Of a stretch of DNA of 36,798 nucleotides, positions 8,850 through 15,010 are shown in pieces; the stretch's first letter is position 1; each line of letters starts with the position of its first letter. A program made the position numbers and the translations under genes. The stretch is from Candidatus Iainarchaeum sp. (GTDB lineage Archaea; B1Sed10-29; WALL01; JAGHAM01): the NCBI GenBank assembly GCA_021161465.1, contig JAGHAM010000007.1, forward strand, positions 1-36,798, read 5' to 3'. A model generated the notes under the pieces. It saw only the letters and a list, made by a program, of their open reading frames with translations. It was not told where the DNA came from and did not search any database.

Positions 8850-9665
8850 ATGGGAGATATGCAACTAGTTTTCCATCCTATCTACCTAGAGCATGACACC
8901 GGGATGCACCCGGAGAATGCAGATAGGGTCAGGTGGGCACTGGAAGAGGATTACATAAAACCCAAAAGTGGAGAAAATTTCTTAGAACTAGTGCATTCAA
9001 AGGATTACATCAAACATGTTAAGGAATACTGCCAGTCTGGCTCCCCTCTGGACGCTGACACTCCAACAGGTCCAAAAAGTTACGACGCGGCCTGCTACGC
9101 TGTGGGTGGAGCTATAAAGGCTGCAGAGATTAACGGCTTCGCCTTGGTAAGGCCCCCGGGCCATCACGCCCCACATGGTGGGTTCTGCTTGTTCAACAAT
9201 ATGGCCATAGCTGCAATGCATCTAGCAAACAACGGCAAGAAAGTCTTGATTGTAGACTGGGATGCCCATCATGGCAATGGAACTCAGGAAACCGTGCTTG
9301 GCAACGAGAACCTCTGGTATTTCTCAACTCACCAATACCCATTTTACCCTGGAACTGGAGGAGAGAGTATTTCTAACTGCACCAACCTTCCACTAAGCCC
9401 CGGCACTGGTGACAGTGAATATATCAAGGCCATTGACTCTGTATTGCCAGGTATACTCAACGAATTTGAACCAGATATAATTGGTGTTTCAGCTGGGTTT
9501 GACTCCATGCTTGGTGACCCGCTAGCAAGCCTGCAGCTCACTGAAAAAAGCTACCTCCACATCTGCAAGCTCATTAAAGATTATGAAAAATTCTTTGTGC
9601 TTGAGGGTGGATATATTCCAGAAAACATCAAATCTGCTGTGAAGGCAATAACCTCGTTTTTCTAG
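8850..9665 (+). CDS. Histone deacetylase-superfamily (AcuC/APAH-like) amidohydrolase
   Basis: A 271-residue zinc-dependent deacetylase of the arginase/HDAC fold. Catalytic residues are all visible: paired histidines in RPPGHHAPHGGFCLFNN (105-106), zinc ligands Asp138 and His140 in DWDAHHGNGT, Asp218 in SAGFDSMLGDP, and the transition-state tyrosine in LEGGY (255). The PPGHHA...GFCLFNN pattern fits class II-like and bacterial/archaeal members. In archaea the substrate is not settled; acetylated chromatin proteins, other acetyl-lysines and acetylpolyamines are all possible. The true start may be the ATG at 8859 (MQLVFHP), which fits the TATA spacing slightly better. It converges on the large surface protein gene with 6 nt between stops. 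Confidence 0.9.
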   Translation: MGDMQLVFHPIYLEHDTGMHPENADRVRWALEEDYIKPKSGENFLELVHSKDYIKHVKEYCQSGSPLDADTPTGPKSYDAACYAVGGAIKAAEINGFALVRPPGHHAPHGGFCLFNNMAIAAMHLANNGKKVLIVDWDAHHGNGTQETVLGNENLWYFSTHQYPFYPGTGGESISNCTNLPLSPGTGDSEYIKAIDSVLPGILNEFEPDIIGVSAGFDSMLGDPLASLQLTEKSYLHICKLIKDYEKFFVLEGGYIPENIKSAVKAITSFF

Positions 9666-9671
9666 AAGACT

Positions 9672-12377
9672 TCAAAACAACTTTTTAGATTCCATCTGGC
9701 CGTCACAACCCTGGAAAGTGACCTCATAGGAGTGGCTTGTGTCTACCTTGACTGTTTTAGCGTAAAATGTATAGCACTTCTGCACATCCTCCTTGAGAAT
9801 TGTTTTTCCATCCTCCTTCAACTCAACCCACTTTATGCCATTTTCGTAGTTCACAAAATAAACCAGGTTTGTGGTTATAGGAGAGCGGTAGCTCACATCA
9901 ACTTCCTTTAATGTCGGAGTTTCAAGTGATGAATTCGTCGAGAGAAGCGCTTTGATTGTTGTGTTCTGGCTGCTGAAGCCTGGCGACGTGTTGTTTTCAA
10001 CTGTGCTCCATTGCCCATTGTTATCAAGCTGGAGTGTTACCCCCTGCTTGTCTGAATACCAGCTCACGTTGAAGAAATTCGCCTCTGCATCCAGGCTTAG
10101 TTTCCTGGACTTGAAATATCCAGATGGCAAATAGCCCTTCCTGGGACCGCCCAGCATCAAGAGGGTTTCTCCTGAGTTTGATTCGCCAAACGGCGCGCCA
10201 AACAAAGCATCACTGAAACCGTCCCCATCGAAATCAGCAGAAGTTGTTGAAGTACCGACCATCGCACCCGAAGCTACTGGACTGCCCATAAATATAGCGT
10301 AACTTGGGTAAGGCCTCTCTGGGGCATCTGATGGGCAATCATTGTCATCATAATCCACCTGACCATCAAGGTCATTGTCAACAGAGTCAAAGCAGTTCTC
10401 CTTGACATTGCATGAATAACCACGCGAGAATCCTGTGGATACTCCCATCACATAATTTTTAAGCGCGAGCCAATCAAGGAAGTCAACACTGCCATCGTTG
10501 TTTACATCCCCACAGCAAATTGGTTGGTCGCCCGTACCTGTACCATTCGCGCCTATTGAAAGCTCAGTCATAGACAGAAGTTCCATGGGGTCAAAACATA
10601 TAGGCTGTAAACCAAGCCCAATCACCCTACTCAACGTCATCAGGTCCCTGAAGTCAACTACATCGTCTCCGTTTACATCCCCAATGAACTGGCTCCCGCT
10701 GCACTTGTACTCAAAGTCGCTCAAGTTATACATTCCATCTAGGGGTCCATAAAATATATAGCCCATCCCGGAGTCAACATCACCAAAATAATCACTGGTC
10801 GGAGCCCCTATCAGAACATCATCAAAACCATCATCATCTGCATCCCCAATTCTGGAAACAGAGCTCCCGAACCCATCCCCAGGAAGCATTCCAATCATGG
10901 TTGCATTGGCATTGTTCAAGCTTATTGTTCCGTTTAAGGGCCCATAGAAAAGATATACTCTCCCAGGTATATCTTGATTTCCCGGCGCGCCAATAACTAT
11001 GTCTGACCTGTTGTCCCCGTTTACGTCATCAACTCCTGCAACAGAGTAGCCAGCTCTCCCGCCACGGATGTCTCCTACAAAGATTGCATTCGCCTGGTTT
11101 AGGTTATAGCTTCCTGAAAGGGGGCCATAAAATAGATAAGCCCGCCCTATGCCATAATCATAAGCCGAAACACCTATGAGAACATCGTCATAGCCATCTC
11201 CATTAACATCTCCTGCACCGGCAACACTGTAGTTAAACTCAAATCCTGCAAGCAGTATCTTGAAGGAAGCAGTTGCATCCCCCTCTGTCATGTCACCACT
11301 GATAGGCCCATCAAAGAGATAGGCTTTTGGGGGGGCTGAACCAGAGCACTTTGAGGATATAGAGGAACTCACGACGCTACCAACCAGTAGGTCATCATTG
11401 CCATCACCATCAACATCGCCAGCATTGGCAACTGAAGAGCCAAACTGCTCACACAGGGAACCATATATAGTTGCCTTAGCATTCGCAGGTGTTAGCACTC
11501 CAGAAACAGGAGAAGAGAATAAATAAACCGCACCACTGTGATACCCATTTTTGTCATTAGTTGGGGCCCCAACTGCAAGCATGGAACTAGGCTCAGCCAG
11601 GGTAGCCACAGACCAGCCAGCAAAGTCGCCTGGATTCCCTTTGATAACTGCCCTAGCATTCTGCAGACTTGCATCTGCTGTTGGCTCGGTTACATAAACT
11701 GCTCCAGAGTCAATTCCATTGATATCACTGGCAGGGGAGCCCACGGCTGCCTCCTGTTTTCCGCTGCCAAAATCTCCGGATGCAAGGGAAAAACCAGAAT
11801 TGCTGCCTGCCTCTCCAGTCAGCGTCGCGCTCTGGTGTGATAGTGGAGGTATGTTAAGCTTCTTGTACAGTTGGACACCCTCTCCTGAAACAGAAGTATT
11901 GTAAAAAGTACCATTCCTAAACTCATCAACTCCACTAACCCACGTCCCCGACAGCAAAGCAGGCGATGTTGCAAAGGCTATATCAGGAACCGAGTCACAG
12001 TTTGATATCACCACTTCCATTGGTGCTATACCCTTTCCATCTGAGGTTTCACCAAAAATCACAAACTTGCATTTCTTCGTTGGCATCACGCATTCCGCGT
12101 GCCCACCTGGCTTAATGGTAACGACCTTTCCAAAGTCGCACCTTACCCCATCATTTGTATCAAGATGGTCCAGGGTTATCGCGTCATTGGATGGGTTCGT
12201 AATGAGATATCTGCCCTTTGCCGGGTCGATTGGCTCAACAGAAACATAAAATGGAGCTTTTCCATTCTCGCCGGGACCTAGGATATAGACTGCAAAAAAG
12301 TAAACGCCAAGCACTGCCACTATCGCCACTGTTATCATAAGGACAATCGAAACTGTTTGGGAGATTCCTTTCCTCAT
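9672..12377 (-). CDS. Cell-surface FG-GAP propeller protein with inserted dockerin-like domain and pilin-like anchor
   Basis: A 901-residue exported protein. The N-terminus MRKGISQTVSIVLMITVAIVAVLGVYFF resembles an archaeal type IV pilin (class III) signal with a helix from about 8 to 34. About seven FG-GAP/integrin-alpha-type repeats follow: near 192-230, 250-288, 311-358, 381-420, 440-480, 500-545 and 707-745. Several carry calcium loops such as GDVNGDGYDD. Between the sixth and seventh repeats lies an insert (559-681) with two EF-hand-like dockerin repeats (GDVNGDDVVDFRDLM at 566-580, GDVNNDGSVDFLDW at 623-636) and an Asp-rich SVDNDLDGQVDYDDNDC loop at about 665-681. The remaining 150 residues are beta-rich. 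A TATA box is centred about 25 nt upstream of the ATG. It is probably a surface adhesion or scaffold protein; the partner is unknown. Confidence 0.85.
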   Translation of the reverse strand: MRKGISQTVSIVLMITVAIVAVLGVYFFAVYILGPGENGKAPFYVSVEPIDPAKGRYLITNPSNDAITLDHLDTNDGVRCDFGKVVTIKPGGHAECVMPTKKCKFVIFGETSDGKGIAPMEVVISNCDSVPDIAFATSPALLSGTWVSGVDEFRNGTFYNTSVSGEGVQLYKKLNIPPLSHQSATLTGEAGSNSGFSLASGDFGSGKQEAAVGSPASDINGIDSGAVYVTEPTADASLQNARAVIKGNPGDFAGWSVATLAEPSSMLAVGAPTNDKNGYHSGAVYLFSSPVSGVLTPANAKATIYGSLCEQFGSSVANAGDVDGDGNDDLLVGSVVSSSISSKCSGSAPPKAYLFDGPISGDMTEGDATASFKILLAGFEFNYSVAGAGDVNGDGYDDVLIGVSAYDYGIGRAYLFYGPLSGSYNLNQANAIFVGDIRGGRAGYSVAGVDDVNGDNRSDIVIGAPGNQDIPGRVYLFYGPLNGTISLNNANATMIGMLPGDGFGSSVSRIGDADDDGFDDVLIGAPTSDYFGDVDSGMGYIFYGPLDGMYNLSDFEYKCSGSQFIGDVNGDDVVDFRDLMTLSRVIGLGLQPICFDPMELLSMTELSIGANGTGTGDQPICCGDVNNDGSVDFLDWLALKNYVMGVSTGFSRGYSCNVKENCFDSVDNDLDGQVDYDDNDCPSDAPERPYPSYAIFMGSPVASGAMVGTSTTSADFDGDGFSDALFGAPFGESNSGETLLMLGGPRKGYLPSGYFKSRKLSLDAEANFFNVSWYSDKQGVTLQLDNNGQWSTVENNTSPGFSSQNTTIKALLSTNSSLETPTLKEVDVSYRSPITTNLVYFVNYENGIKWVELKEDGKTILKEDVQKCYTFYAKTVKVDTSHSYEVTFQGCDGQMESKKLF

Positions 12378-12394
12378 AATTCAATTTAAGAACG

Positions 12395-12407
12395 ATTTAT
12401 TTAAAAC
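12395..12407 (-). promoter_or_regulatory. TATA box of the FG-GAP surface protein gene
   Basis: On the minus strand this reads TTTTAAATAAATC, centred about 25 nt upstream of the ATG at 12377, consistent with a leaderless transcript. Confidence 0.55.
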
Positions 12408-12469
12408 CCTTGTGTTCCAATGGGAGTACATAGGCTAGGCGGACAAACAACAACCCACAAAAACCAAAA

Positions 12470-12480
12470 GTATTTAAACC
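12470..12480 (+). promoter_or_regulatory. TATA box of the SpoIIM/DUF95 gene
   Basis: GTATTTAAACC, centred 26-27 nt upstream of the ATG at 12502, preceded by an A-rich stretch. Consistent with a leaderless transcript. Confidence 0.55.
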
Positions 12481-12501
12481 CTAATTGAAAACTATTCGTT
12501 C

Positions 12502-13473
12502 ATGCTTGAATCCTTGATTAAGCCAGAGATACTGGAACACAAAAGCTATGAGATGTTTTTCATGGCTTTGGCCATAGGCGCGGTATCTATAACCATGGCT
12601 GCACTGATAACGCGGAACAACACACATCCTTATGCATCATACGCTACCGCTTACCTGGCAGTTGCATTTGCCTGCATAGCTACTGCTCCTATAATGGTGA
12701 GGATAATTCAGAAGGAAGAGAGAAAGGACGAGGTCACGAGGGCAGGGCCTTTTTTTGGTGGCTACTGGTGTGTGATAAAGACATATATTTTCTATTTCCT
12801 TGGTATTATAGTGATATTCTCTCTTGTATTTGCTCTCTTACCAATGGAAAAATCAAACCAACTTTTCTCTGCACAAATAGAAGAACTTGTTAGGATAAGA
12901 GGGGAAAGGATAGAGAACATAACGAACAGTAACTTAGCGGCAAACGTTGTGCGTACGGGAGCTGCCGTGAATAAAACAAATATTTTCTTTAAAATCTTGT
13001 TTAACAATTTGTCCGTGCTTACACTTGCACTTATCTTCTCATTCATATTTGGAGCTGGGGCTATATACATCATAACCTGGAATGCCTCTATAATTGGTGT
13101 TTTGATTGGTGCTGCTGCTAAAGAAGGTATTGGTCTAAAAGTTGGTGTTTGGGAGGCTGGAAAATTCATCGCGATTCACAATGCACTTCCACCTGAATGT
13201 TGCTCGATACTTGGGAGTATCACTCATGCAATTGGTAAAAACATCTTGGTGAGTTACTCTGTTGCCCTGCCTTGCTCCCTGTTAGCCCTCACACCGCATG
13301 GCATCTTTGAAATAAGCGCATACTTTATGGCCGGTCTTGTCGGAGGCATACTCTCAACAATCTCAGTTAACAACAAACTTCCAGACAGGGAAGTAATCCT
13401 ACATTCCACCATACTTCTCGCAGTTGCTATTGCATTCATATTCATCGGAGCAGCTATAGAAGCAGGGCTTTGA
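12502..13473 (+). CDS. SpoIIM/DUF95-family integral membrane protein
   Basis: A 323-residue membrane protein with about six helices and a long extracytoplasmic or cytoplasmic loop at roughly 110-165. The core SFIFGAGAIYIITWNASIIGVLIG and the PHGIFEISAYFMAGLVGGIL segment are diagnostic of the SpoIIM (stage II sporulation protein M, DUF95) family. In Bacillus SpoIIM takes part in septal peptidoglycan degradation; the archaeal role is not established and there is no sporulation here. A TATA box 26 nt upstream supports the start. The 3' end overlaps the convergent PF06695 gene by 20 nt. Confidence 0.82.
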   Translation: MLESLIKPEILEHKSYEMFFMALAIGAVSITMAALITRNNTHPYASYATAYLAVAFACIATAPIMVRIIQKEERKDEVTRAGPFFGGYWCVIKTYIFYFLGIIVIFSLVFALLPMEKSNQLFSAQIEELVRIRGERIENITNSNLAANVVRTGAAVNKTNIFFKILFNNLSVLTLALIFSFIFGAGAIYIITWNASIIGVLIGAAAKEGIGLKVGVWEAGKFIAIHNALPPECCSILGSITHAIGKNILVSYSVALPCSLLALTPHGIFEISAYFMAGLVGGILSTISVNNKLPDREVILHSTILLAVAIAFIFIGAAIEAGL

Positions 13474-13900
13474 AGCCAATGGATGCAAAAGTCACTATTA
13501 CGCCTGCTATCACTACACCAAGACTTATAGCTTTAAGGGCTTTGTCCCTGGGAACTCCTAAAAGGTATGCCGCCAAAGCACCAGAATATGCTCCAGTGCC
13601 TGGCCAAGGTATCATCACAAAGACCATCAAACCCAAGAACCCCCACCTATCCACATATCGGACTGCCTTCTTCTGAACTCTGTTTACCACCCTCCCCACA
13701 ATCTTCCAGTGCCTGACGAACCTGAAGAAGTGGTCTAAAAATAAGAAGGTTGGAAAAAGTAGCAAGATATTGGCTGCAACGCAAATGATGAGAACAACAA
13801 ATGGGTTGAGACCTGTGCTTATTCCATAAGGTATAGAACCCCTAAGCTCCACCCATGGAACCAGCGTTATTAGAACTAGGTATGCAAGCTCCTGAATCAT
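13454..13900 (-). CDS. Putative small multidrug export protein (PF06695 family)
   Basis: A 148-residue protein with about four membrane helices. The N-terminal VPWVELRGSIPYGISTGLNP and the central FVMIPWPGTGAYSGALAAYLLGV are characteristic of the family annotated as putative small multi-drug export proteins, whose transport function is weakly supported. The paired Pro-Trp and Gly-rich elements recall re-entrant loops of DedA/VTT-like transporters. Its ATG overlaps the stop codon of the SPFH gene (13897-13900), so it is translated from the same mRNA, which suggests the two proteins act in the same membrane patch. Confidence 0.75.
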   Translation of the reverse strand: MIQELAYLVLITLVPWVELRGSIPYGISTGLNPFVVLIICVAANILLLFPTFLFLDHFFRFVRHWKIVGRVVNRVQKKAVRYVDRWGFLGLMVFVMIPWPGTGAYSGALAAYLLGVPRDKALKAISLGVVIAGVIVTFASIGFKALLL

Positions 13901-14943
13901 TTCTTATCTTTCCTTGTCCTTTTCCTCAACTCTTCAATGATGTCCTCTTTCTTCGCACGTTTCCCTTCTCTTGCTCTCTCCAGGAGCAACTCATTGTACT
14001 TCTCCCTTAGCTCATCCTCAGTTGTTTTAGATGTGCTACCCATCCTGCCAGAAAGCCTTTCTGCCAAGTGTGTTAACTCTATTGGGAATATTATCTTACT
14101 TGACCTTCCCTCAGATATCTTCTCAAGTGCCTGTAAGTATAAATACTGCAATGCTGGGTCAGTAAGTTTTCCTGCAGCATCTCTCACCGCATCAATCCTT
14201 ATAGCCTGTGCCTTTGCAAGCTCCTCTGCAGCATACTTCTGCTGTTCTGCTGCCTTCCTCCTATGCATTGCATCCATAACTTCTGACGGTAGCTCTATGC
14301 TCTGTATCTCAACTTTAACAACACTTATGCCCCAATCTTTCGATATCTGCTCAAGGCCTTTTTGGAGGAGCCTGTTTATCATATCTACCTGGCTTATAAC
14401 AGACTCAAGCTCCATCTTGCCTACGATATCTCTTAGATGGGCCTCAACATAAGCTTTCACTGAAAGTGCAGGGTCCTCAACATTTATGACTGCCGCCTTT
14501 GGGTCGGTTATCTTTAGAAAGGATATGGCATCAACGGTCAAGACAATATTGTCCTTGGTGATGACCTTTTGTGGCTCTATGTTTGCTGTGAACACGCGCA
14601 GGTCAACCACCCTTGGGTCATCTATAAAAGGTATCAAAAACACCCATCCAGGCCCTGCAACCCTATGAAACTTACCATAGCGCAGTATGACGGCCCTCCT
14701 GTACTCAGGGAGCTCGATTATCATACCGGGAGATTTATAGTAGAGAACCGCAAGTATCACAAGGACGCCTATTAGTAATACCAGCTCATCGACGAACTGC
14801 ATAAAATACAGCACAACCAGAGCTAAAAATGCTAGAATCAGGAATATAACAAATGCTCCCGCCTCCTGCCCTTGGGGTCTCTTGTTGGAGGAAGTTATTG
14901 GGTTTATATCACGAAATTTGTTTCGTTTCATAGCTGCTGGCAT
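13897..14943 (-). CDS. SPFH/band 7 (stomatin/slipin) membrane protein
   Basis: A 348-residue protein with a basic N-terminus, two closely spaced hydrophobic segments (about 30-70) and a band 7/SPFH domain (about 72-280). The domain has the family hallmarks ELPEYRRAVILRYGKFHRVAGPGWVFLIPFID and DLRVFTANIEPQKVITKDN. A coiled-coil region EVMDAMHRRKAAEQQKYAAEELAKAQA follows, then a charged C-terminal tail rich in Lys/Glu/Arg. SPFH proteins oligomerise on membranes and organise local protein complexes. Archaeal slipins often pair with an NfeD-type protein; none is here, and a PF06695 protein is coupled instead. The ATG at 14943 is preferred over an upstream in-frame start at 14988, which would lie before the TATA box. 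An ATG at 14931 is also possible. Confidence 0.85.
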   Translation of the reverse strand: MPAAMKRNKFRDINPITSSNKRPQGQEAGAFVIFLILAFLALVVLYFMQFVDELVLLIGVLVILAVLYYKSPGMIIELPEYRRAVILRYGKFHRVAGPGWVFLIPFIDDPRVVDLRVFTANIEPQKVITKDNIVLTVDAISFLKITDPKAAVINVEDPALSVKAYVEAHLRDIVGKMELESVISQVDMINRLLQKGLEQISKDWGISVVKVEIQSIELPSEVMDAMHRRKAAEQQKYAAEELAKAQAIRIDAVRDAAGKLTDPALQYLYLQALEKISEGRSSKIIFPIELTHLAERLSGRMGSTSKTTEDELREKYNELLLERAREGKRAKKEDIIEELRKRTRKDKK

Positions 14944-14973
14944 TTGTGCACCCGAGTATAAAATCAAGCAGTA

Positions 14974-14984
14974 AGTATATAAAA
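14974..14984. promoter_or_regulatory. Shared TATA box between the SPFH and DUF373 genes
   Basis: AGTATATAAAA on the plus strand is centred about 32 nt before the DUF373 ATG at 15011. The same element reads TTTTATATACT on the minus strand, about 36 nt before the SPFH ATG at 14943. A second box, TTTTATACTC (minus strand, near 14955-14964), would suit an SPFH start at 14931. Confidence 0.45.
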
Positions 14985-15010
14985 ACATTGGTGTGTAAAA
15001 AATTAGTTAG

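Follow-up and report, generated by a model that had tools for sequence, protein, structure and literature searches.

The 901-residue ORF at positions 9672-12377 (minus strand) of contig JAGHAM010000007.1 of Candidatus Iainarchaeum sp., an archaeon with a small genome, probably encodes an archaeal type IV pilin of modular build, whose adhesion head would depend on calcium and contain an exchangeable propeller. The whole stretch of DNA that was analyzed, referred to here as the window, comprises 36,798 nucleotides. The N-terminus of the ORF is of the pilin type and is followed by six FG-GAP repeats, by two dockerin F-hands with an acidic disulfide motif and then by the seventh FG-GAP repeat. An earlier note, made from the letters of the window, had described this same succession, with the motif given as an Asp-rich loop, and the ORF and Pfam matches confirm it. 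The coordinates of all features are summarized in Table 1.

Table 1 Features of the pilin-propeller gene and its surroundings, with residue numbers of the ORF, positions in the window and the evidence on which each assignment was based.
Feature	Residues	Positions	Strand	Basis
Class III (prepilin-type) signal and N-terminal hydrophobic helix	1-26	12300..12377	-	Expected cleavage after MRKG; helix 2-26 in AF2 model; alignment of 12 order homologues
Pilin head (small beta domain)	about 41-127	11997..12257	-	Strands 46-125 in AF2 model; common to 11 homologues in order
N-terminal half of split beta-sandwich	138-174	11856..11966	-	Fused-half alignment with split and contiguous homologues; tblastn match to G004 over residues 1-179
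Integrin-type FG-GAP propeller: closing strand 183-188 and blades 1-6 to loop of blade 6	183-555	10713..11831	-	Pfam FG-GAP; blade alignment; AF2; Foldseek/VIA
Dockerin and acidic-disulfide insert, beta3-beta4 loop of blade 6	556-690	10308..10712	-	Dockerin_1; whole homologous units L055, L056, L057, L059
Dockerin F-hand 1 (DVNGDDVVDFRD loop and helix)	567-588	10614..10679	-	Pfam; model pLDDT 74-81
Dockerin F-hand 2 (DVNNDGSVDFLD loop and helix)	624-645	10443..10508	-	Pfam; model pLDDT 61-78; phmmer match to solved dockerin 2vn5
Acidic disulfide motif CNVKENCFDSVDNDLDGQVDYDDNDC	656-681	10335..10412	-	NF033662 E 5e-4, below curated cut-off; kept in six of six units of alignment A6
Beta4 of blade 6 (SYAIFMGS) and blade 7 beta1-beta3	691-750	10128..10307	-	FG-GAP match 708-736; blade alignment
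C-terminal half of split beta-sandwich	752-833	9879..10124	-	Fused-half alignment; query-free HMM
Order-specific C-terminal domain C2	834-901	9675..9878	-	Alignment A2
TATA-box-like TTTAAATA, 21-28 nt upstream of start codon		12398..12405	-	Read from sequence
Gain site between HDAC (8850-9665 +) and SpoIIM (12502-13473 +)		9666..12501	.	Synteny with G001, G002, G009 (L167, L168, L169)

The ORF begins with MRKG followed by ISQTVSIVLMITVAIVAV (MRKG, then ISQTV...), which is a class III (prepilin) signal. A Pfam search gave no Pilin_N match for the query itself; two of its homologues, L063 and L064, at 33% identity in the alignment, score above the Pilin_N (PF07790) cut-off. The signal and these homologues uphold the earlier proposal of a pilin-type rather than a Sec N-terminus. 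In the AF2 model, the pilin head has pLDDT values of mostly 68-86 up to about residue 100, and this N-domain can be aligned in 12 proteins; helix and head (41-127) are jointly conserved in every member of the family. The N-domain, with its class III signal, hydrophobic helix and small beta head, thus looks like an archaeal pilin. The signal and helix, with a head of modelled strands followed by a propeller and other domains, are the make-up of a modular type IV pilin. The C2 domain at the other end of the protein was found in six of the 19 genomes of the class, all of them within the same order. The position of the TATA-box-like element suggests that the pilin gene has its own, leaderless promoter.

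For the propeller, Pfam FG-GAP matched at E 7.6e-28 in six significant stretches above the curated cut-off, and in no other genome of the class was FG-GAP found above that cut-off. Behind the insert, the seventh repeat also gives a genuine match to FG-GAP (genome-wide E 4.6e-7, the third best of five there). The seven blades can be aligned with one another and present a common pattern of an ATLTG-like strand, an FG-type turn, a loop, a GAP-type turn and a YLF strand. A Dx[DN]xDG (DxDxDG-like) loop occurs in five of them, namely blades 3-7, and is imperfect in blade 5. With seven FG-GAP/Cage repeats, the propeller is of the integrin type, and both Pfam and the blade alignment agree with the earlier view of seven repeats interrupted by a dockerin-type module.

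The full-length AF2 run used an alignment of seven FG-GAP rows, none of which covered the insert, blade 7 or the beta-sandwich described below. This should be considered when referring to the model, as the lack of such rows accounts for the pLDDT of about 30 or less in the insert and blade 7 and of less than 50 in most of the sandwich. Blades 1-6 were predicted with confidence, and Foldseek matched them best to integrin alpha chains (E about 1e-15). Comparison with integrin alpha by VIA gave Z about 24-27 and rmsd 3.5-4.2 for about 315 residues within 179-545, and an integrin-type fold is thus predicted for blades 1-6 by both methods. Sequence matches among solved structures are also integrin alpha chains. 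As to closure of the ring, beta4 of blade 7 would be supplied by the first strand of the propeller (183-188), which is the usual closing arrangement, and several FG-GAP relatives terminate right after beta3 of the last blade, which fits completion of blade 7 by this strand. The sequence is consistent with a closed seven-bladed ring, and we infer such closure.

According to the alignments, the propeller is itself inserted in a loop of one beta-sandwich, the halves of which are its two flanks, residues 138-174 and 752-833. When aligned with L065, L061, L063, L064 and L067, these segments correspond to the two halves of a single domain. In the first four of these proteins, the sandwich is split at the same loop, with 337-396 residues intervening, while in L067, a relative from the same order, it is contiguous, as befits a host domain that is split in the others. 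Further contiguous copies were found by HMM searches in other archaea (L126, L127 and L131). An HMM built without the query found the C-terminal half of the sandwich at 12.9 bits, as compared to a best score of 6.5 in the shuffled query. The N-terminal half is too short to be significant alone in this query-free test and is contiguous with the conserved N-domain in the tblastn matches. Neither Pfam nor solved-structure searches placed the sandwich in a family.

A protein search over relatives in the order showed that none shares the FG-GAP propeller, while many share residues 1-160 and 740-898. The sandwich loop of L063 and L064 contains a PQQ/BamB-type propeller (Pfam, E 1e-27 to 1e-32), and that of L065 and L061 contains repeats of about 48 residues, about seven of them by length. 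The latter insert matched no known propeller family in Pfam or among solved structures; from the repeats, we presume that it, too, folds as a propeller. As judged by these comparisons, the pilin frame is constant in the order, while lineages differ in the propeller that the sandwich loop holds. The loop thus looks like the site of a swappable adhesion head. Two members of the frame, L054 and L058, carry DUF2341 and LamG, and DUF2341 has been proposed as a mark of archaeal pilus-tip adhesins (PMC4858521). In the sister genus, on contig C42 of G001, L058:6532-11082 (+) encodes a 1517-residue pilin-frame protein with about 27 tandem repeats of about 46 residues (HISYYDSTNGDLKHAEYNGSWHTETVDS...) between the N-domain and C2; its neighbour is another pilin-frame protein, in which DUF2341 matches in two stretches.

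The dockerin insert lies one level deeper. Integrin blades have the FG pair at strand 1 and GAP at strand 2, and the loops on the Ca2+ side are those between strands 1 and 2 and between strands 3 and 4 (PMC3192720). The insert follows beta3 of blade 6 (MGYIFYG) and precedes its beta4 (SYAIFMG). As it separates strands 3 and 4 by the integrin convention, its position by strand order is within blade 6, in the beta3-beta4 loop on the calcium face, and not between blades, where it had been placed earlier. A regular expression, which is a weak test, found no such insert among the ORFs of the FG-GAP homologues L029-L053.

Dockerin_1 matched the whole ORF at E 3.9e-8 in two stretches (33.8 bits, against a cut-off of 22.9) and the insert segment alone at E 4e-11, and phmmer matched the insert to the solved dockerin 2vn5 at E 7e-6. 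Both F-hand Ca2+ loops, DVNGDDVVDFRD and DVNNDGSVDFLD, present ligands at positions 1, 3, 5, 9 and 12, as type I dockerins do. The Asp-rich loop reported in the earlier note to follow the dockerin is indeed present, with a weak match to NF033662, but it is part of the dockerin unit rather than a separate element. Five homologous units, from the query's own genome (L055, L056, L057) and from the sister genus (L059), align with the insert, and all six share one cysteine pattern, the two Ca2+ loops and the acidic motif ExCxDxxDNDxDGxxDxxDxDC, with small variations. The query unit lacks two cysteines that are common to its relatives (TGF for xCF, DNDL for DNDC), and its linker is about 20 residues longer than theirs and contains an extra Cys. 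On the basis of this alignment, the dockerin and the Asp-rich loop are one cysteine-patterned, lineage-specific compound unit. Among 297 archaeal genomes, the full unit was found only in the query's own (G000) and in G001, and the other matching genomes contain the dockerin part only. This restricted distribution suggests that the insert probably derives from the stock of such units in the same genome. Scans of viral contigs found no full unit, and canonical dockerins are present there.

When the insert was modelled by AF2 with eight viral-contig dockerins, both loop-helix hands were obtained (block pLDDT 61-81), with no reliable packing. The top Foldseek rows for this model are dockerins, but at a non-significant E of 0.25 or worse. 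Dockerin matches were found in four ORFs of the query's genome, i.e. the query and three others. In its other hosts, the unit occurs mid-protein and in multiple copies per protein. Contigs C39 and C40 of G000 both begin inside a near-identical dockerin/acidic-disulfide unit (L057:1-600 and L056:1-600 being, respectively, on C40 and C39), which points to assembly breaks at repeated dockerin DNA, and the dockerin numbers should therefore be considered lower bounds. Tandem CNGIDDDCDGLSDDSDP-type metal-binding repeats resembling the acidic disulfide motif are found in two bacterial FG-GAP proteins, L051:1687-7347 (+) and L036:573-2855 (+).

The absence of a cohesin partner, previously noted for the window, now extends to the whole genome, which is 92.99% complete and in which no cohesin was found, even by a loose first look. 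A reading of the protein as part of a cellulosome was rejected on this result. One cohesin protein was found in the sister genus (L060:1186-3717 (+), contig C56 of G001); it is the only cohesin found in the family, looks secreted and continues as an apparent beta-helix. What the dockerin unit does in the blade should be considered with these data in mind. Most likely, it serves as a knob with a structural or contact role; a function as docking arm is possible. There is, in our estimate, about an even chance that the insert is a structural calcium and disulfide spacer, near-neutral, tolerated in the blade loop and in need of no partner, a view that is compatible with our explanation of the protein as a whole. 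The Cys and Asp pattern is kept across the six units, the unit is reused in a bead-like manner in stalk-like proteins, and the two conserved cysteines missing from the query were lost together, which is consistent with the loss of one disulfide as a pair. That no cohesin accompanies the unit in its own genome agrees with such a spacer as well. However, the Ca2+ ligands of both hands are fully kept, even though the propeller relatives do without the insert. This retention, together with the matches to Dockerin_1 and to solved dockerins, is what would be expected if the dockerin instead served as a docking arm for a cohesin of another cell (host or neighbour) or one encoded in the missing 7% of the genome, making the protein a cell-cell or enzyme-docking receptor. 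The cohesin of the sister genus, the three other dockerin ORFs and the breaks in dockerin units at C39 and C40 argue in the same direction. Nonetheless, we consider docking rather unlikely, given the lack of any cohesin candidate in the own genome, the mid-protein and multicopy occurrence of the unit, unlike the usual single C-terminal dockerin of cellulosomal proteins, and the longer linker with its extra Cys. Improbable, in our view, is the combination of both themes, in which the sandwich loop would be a dedicated receptacle that exchanges whole propellers (FG-GAP, PQQ-type or 48-residue) for specificity and the dockerin in the blade of one lineage would dock a cohesin on another cell, giving an archaeal counterpart of alpha-I integrin on a pilus.

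For the protein as a whole, we propose that the N-terminal helix is inserted in the membrane and cleaved by prepilin peptidase, following which the protein would be placed in a type IV filament or at its tip, or would be left as a membrane-anchored pilin. The pilin head would bear the beta-sandwich, and the loop of the sandwich would hold a complete, integrin-type seven-bladed propeller, presumed to be the ligand-binding module. On the calcium face, the dockerin unit of blade 6 would contribute at least two Ca2+ sites and a knob that protrudes. A surface adhesin, as had been offered earlier as a possibility, is the likeliest role; a part in host contact is speculation. However, the same architecture would also suit a protein that is anchored in the membrane and never built into a filament, namely an N-terminally anchored surface or S-layer-associated protein that uses the pilin signal for export only. 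We regard this as unlikely. In its favour, a bulky head of 870 residues is hard to fit in the body of a filament, and no pilus genes are adjacent to the gene. The joint conservation of head and helix in the family nonetheless speaks for the pilin, as do two prepilin peptidases and six T2SSE-family secretion ATPases encoded in the own genome; bacteria, moreover, accommodate bulky modular pilins at pilus tips (PMC8179133). Far less credible is an extracellular enzyme held on the cell, with a lyase or phytase-like propeller, in place of an adhesin. An alkaline phytase propeller (3amr) does appear among the integrin rows of VIA at Z 24.6, and calcium-blade propellers occur in lyases (PMC3123361). 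Yet the sequence matches among solved structures are integrin alpha chains, and relatives with other propellers or with DUF2341/LamG in the same frame fit binding heads better than one catalysis.

Bulky modules on pilins are established in bacteria, as in PilB, with its grafted vWA adhesin; the tip propeller of PilY1 is a further precedent (PMC8179133). Like the proposed archaeal modular pilin, PilB of Streptococcus sanguinis contains a class III signal and a pilin module followed by a bulky module, with adhesion as a common theme (PMC8179133). The query differs in that its pilin module is archaeal and in that no short linker grafts the head, which instead occupies a loop of a split beta-sandwich and has a second insert nested within it. 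The PilC/PilY1 tip adhesins are a functional analogy, in which a calcium-blade propeller serves a type IV pilus. PilY1, however, is not a pilin and has a C-terminal propeller, whereas in the query a propeller of the FG-GAP type is built into the pilin itself; indeed, Pfam found no match to the PilC/PilY1 propeller (PF05567) in the query. Alpha-I integrins likewise combine an FG-GAP seven-bladed propeller with Ca2+ loops and an inserted metal-binding domain. There, blades 2 and 3 are separated by a vWA domain with a MIDAS, whereas here the insert is a dockerin in the beta3-beta4 loop of blade 6, and there is no beta subunit; Pfam found no vWA match in the query. As alpha-I is sited elsewhere, this comparison is an analogy only.

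Bacterial and archaeal FG-GAP repeat proteins (L029-L053, e.g. of Myxococcota and Halostella) share the blade sequence at about 30-40% identity but present no dockerin pattern between blades, and no pilin frame was seen in them. Non-cellulosomal archaeal dockerins, such as those of ANME (PMC9012536), are found, as here, on archaeal surface proteins where there is no cellulosome. ANME, however, also encode cohesins and scaffoldin-like proteins (PMC9012536), whereas none was detected in the query genome, and the query's unit has a fixed acidic-disulfide extension. Modular pilins are known mainly from bacteria, where the modules are joined end to end. In the query, grafting would be two levels deep in loops, with a dockerin in a blade and a propeller in a sandwich, the latter being carried on a pilin. 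The frame recurs across an archaeal order, holding different propellers at one site and lacking the insert in other members. Comparison of these members is a natural way to address how surface-binding specificity is altered in small archaea, and whether orphan dockerins can function when there is no cohesin.

The gene is set among conserved housekeeping genes, with archaeal neighbours that include LonB, DUF373, the RFC large subunit and a split PheRS. In G001, G002 and G009, HDAC and SpoIIM are 26-40 bp apart with nothing between them, and gene order is kept. As judged by this synteny, the pilin-propeller gene is a recent gain between the two. No terminal repeats of a mobile element were found at the gain site. 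The GC content of the whole gene is 0.474 and its GC3 is 0.448, as compared to 0.42-0.48 and 0.40-0.54, respectively, in the neighbours, and blades 1-6 have the lowest GC3 (0.394); no clear foreign signature was thus seen in GC or GC3. Elsewhere in the window, a Band_7 (SPFH) gene overlaps a gene of a small multidrug-export family (13897-14988 and 13454-13900, minus strand), and the pair is kept together with HDAC and SpoIIM in relatives.
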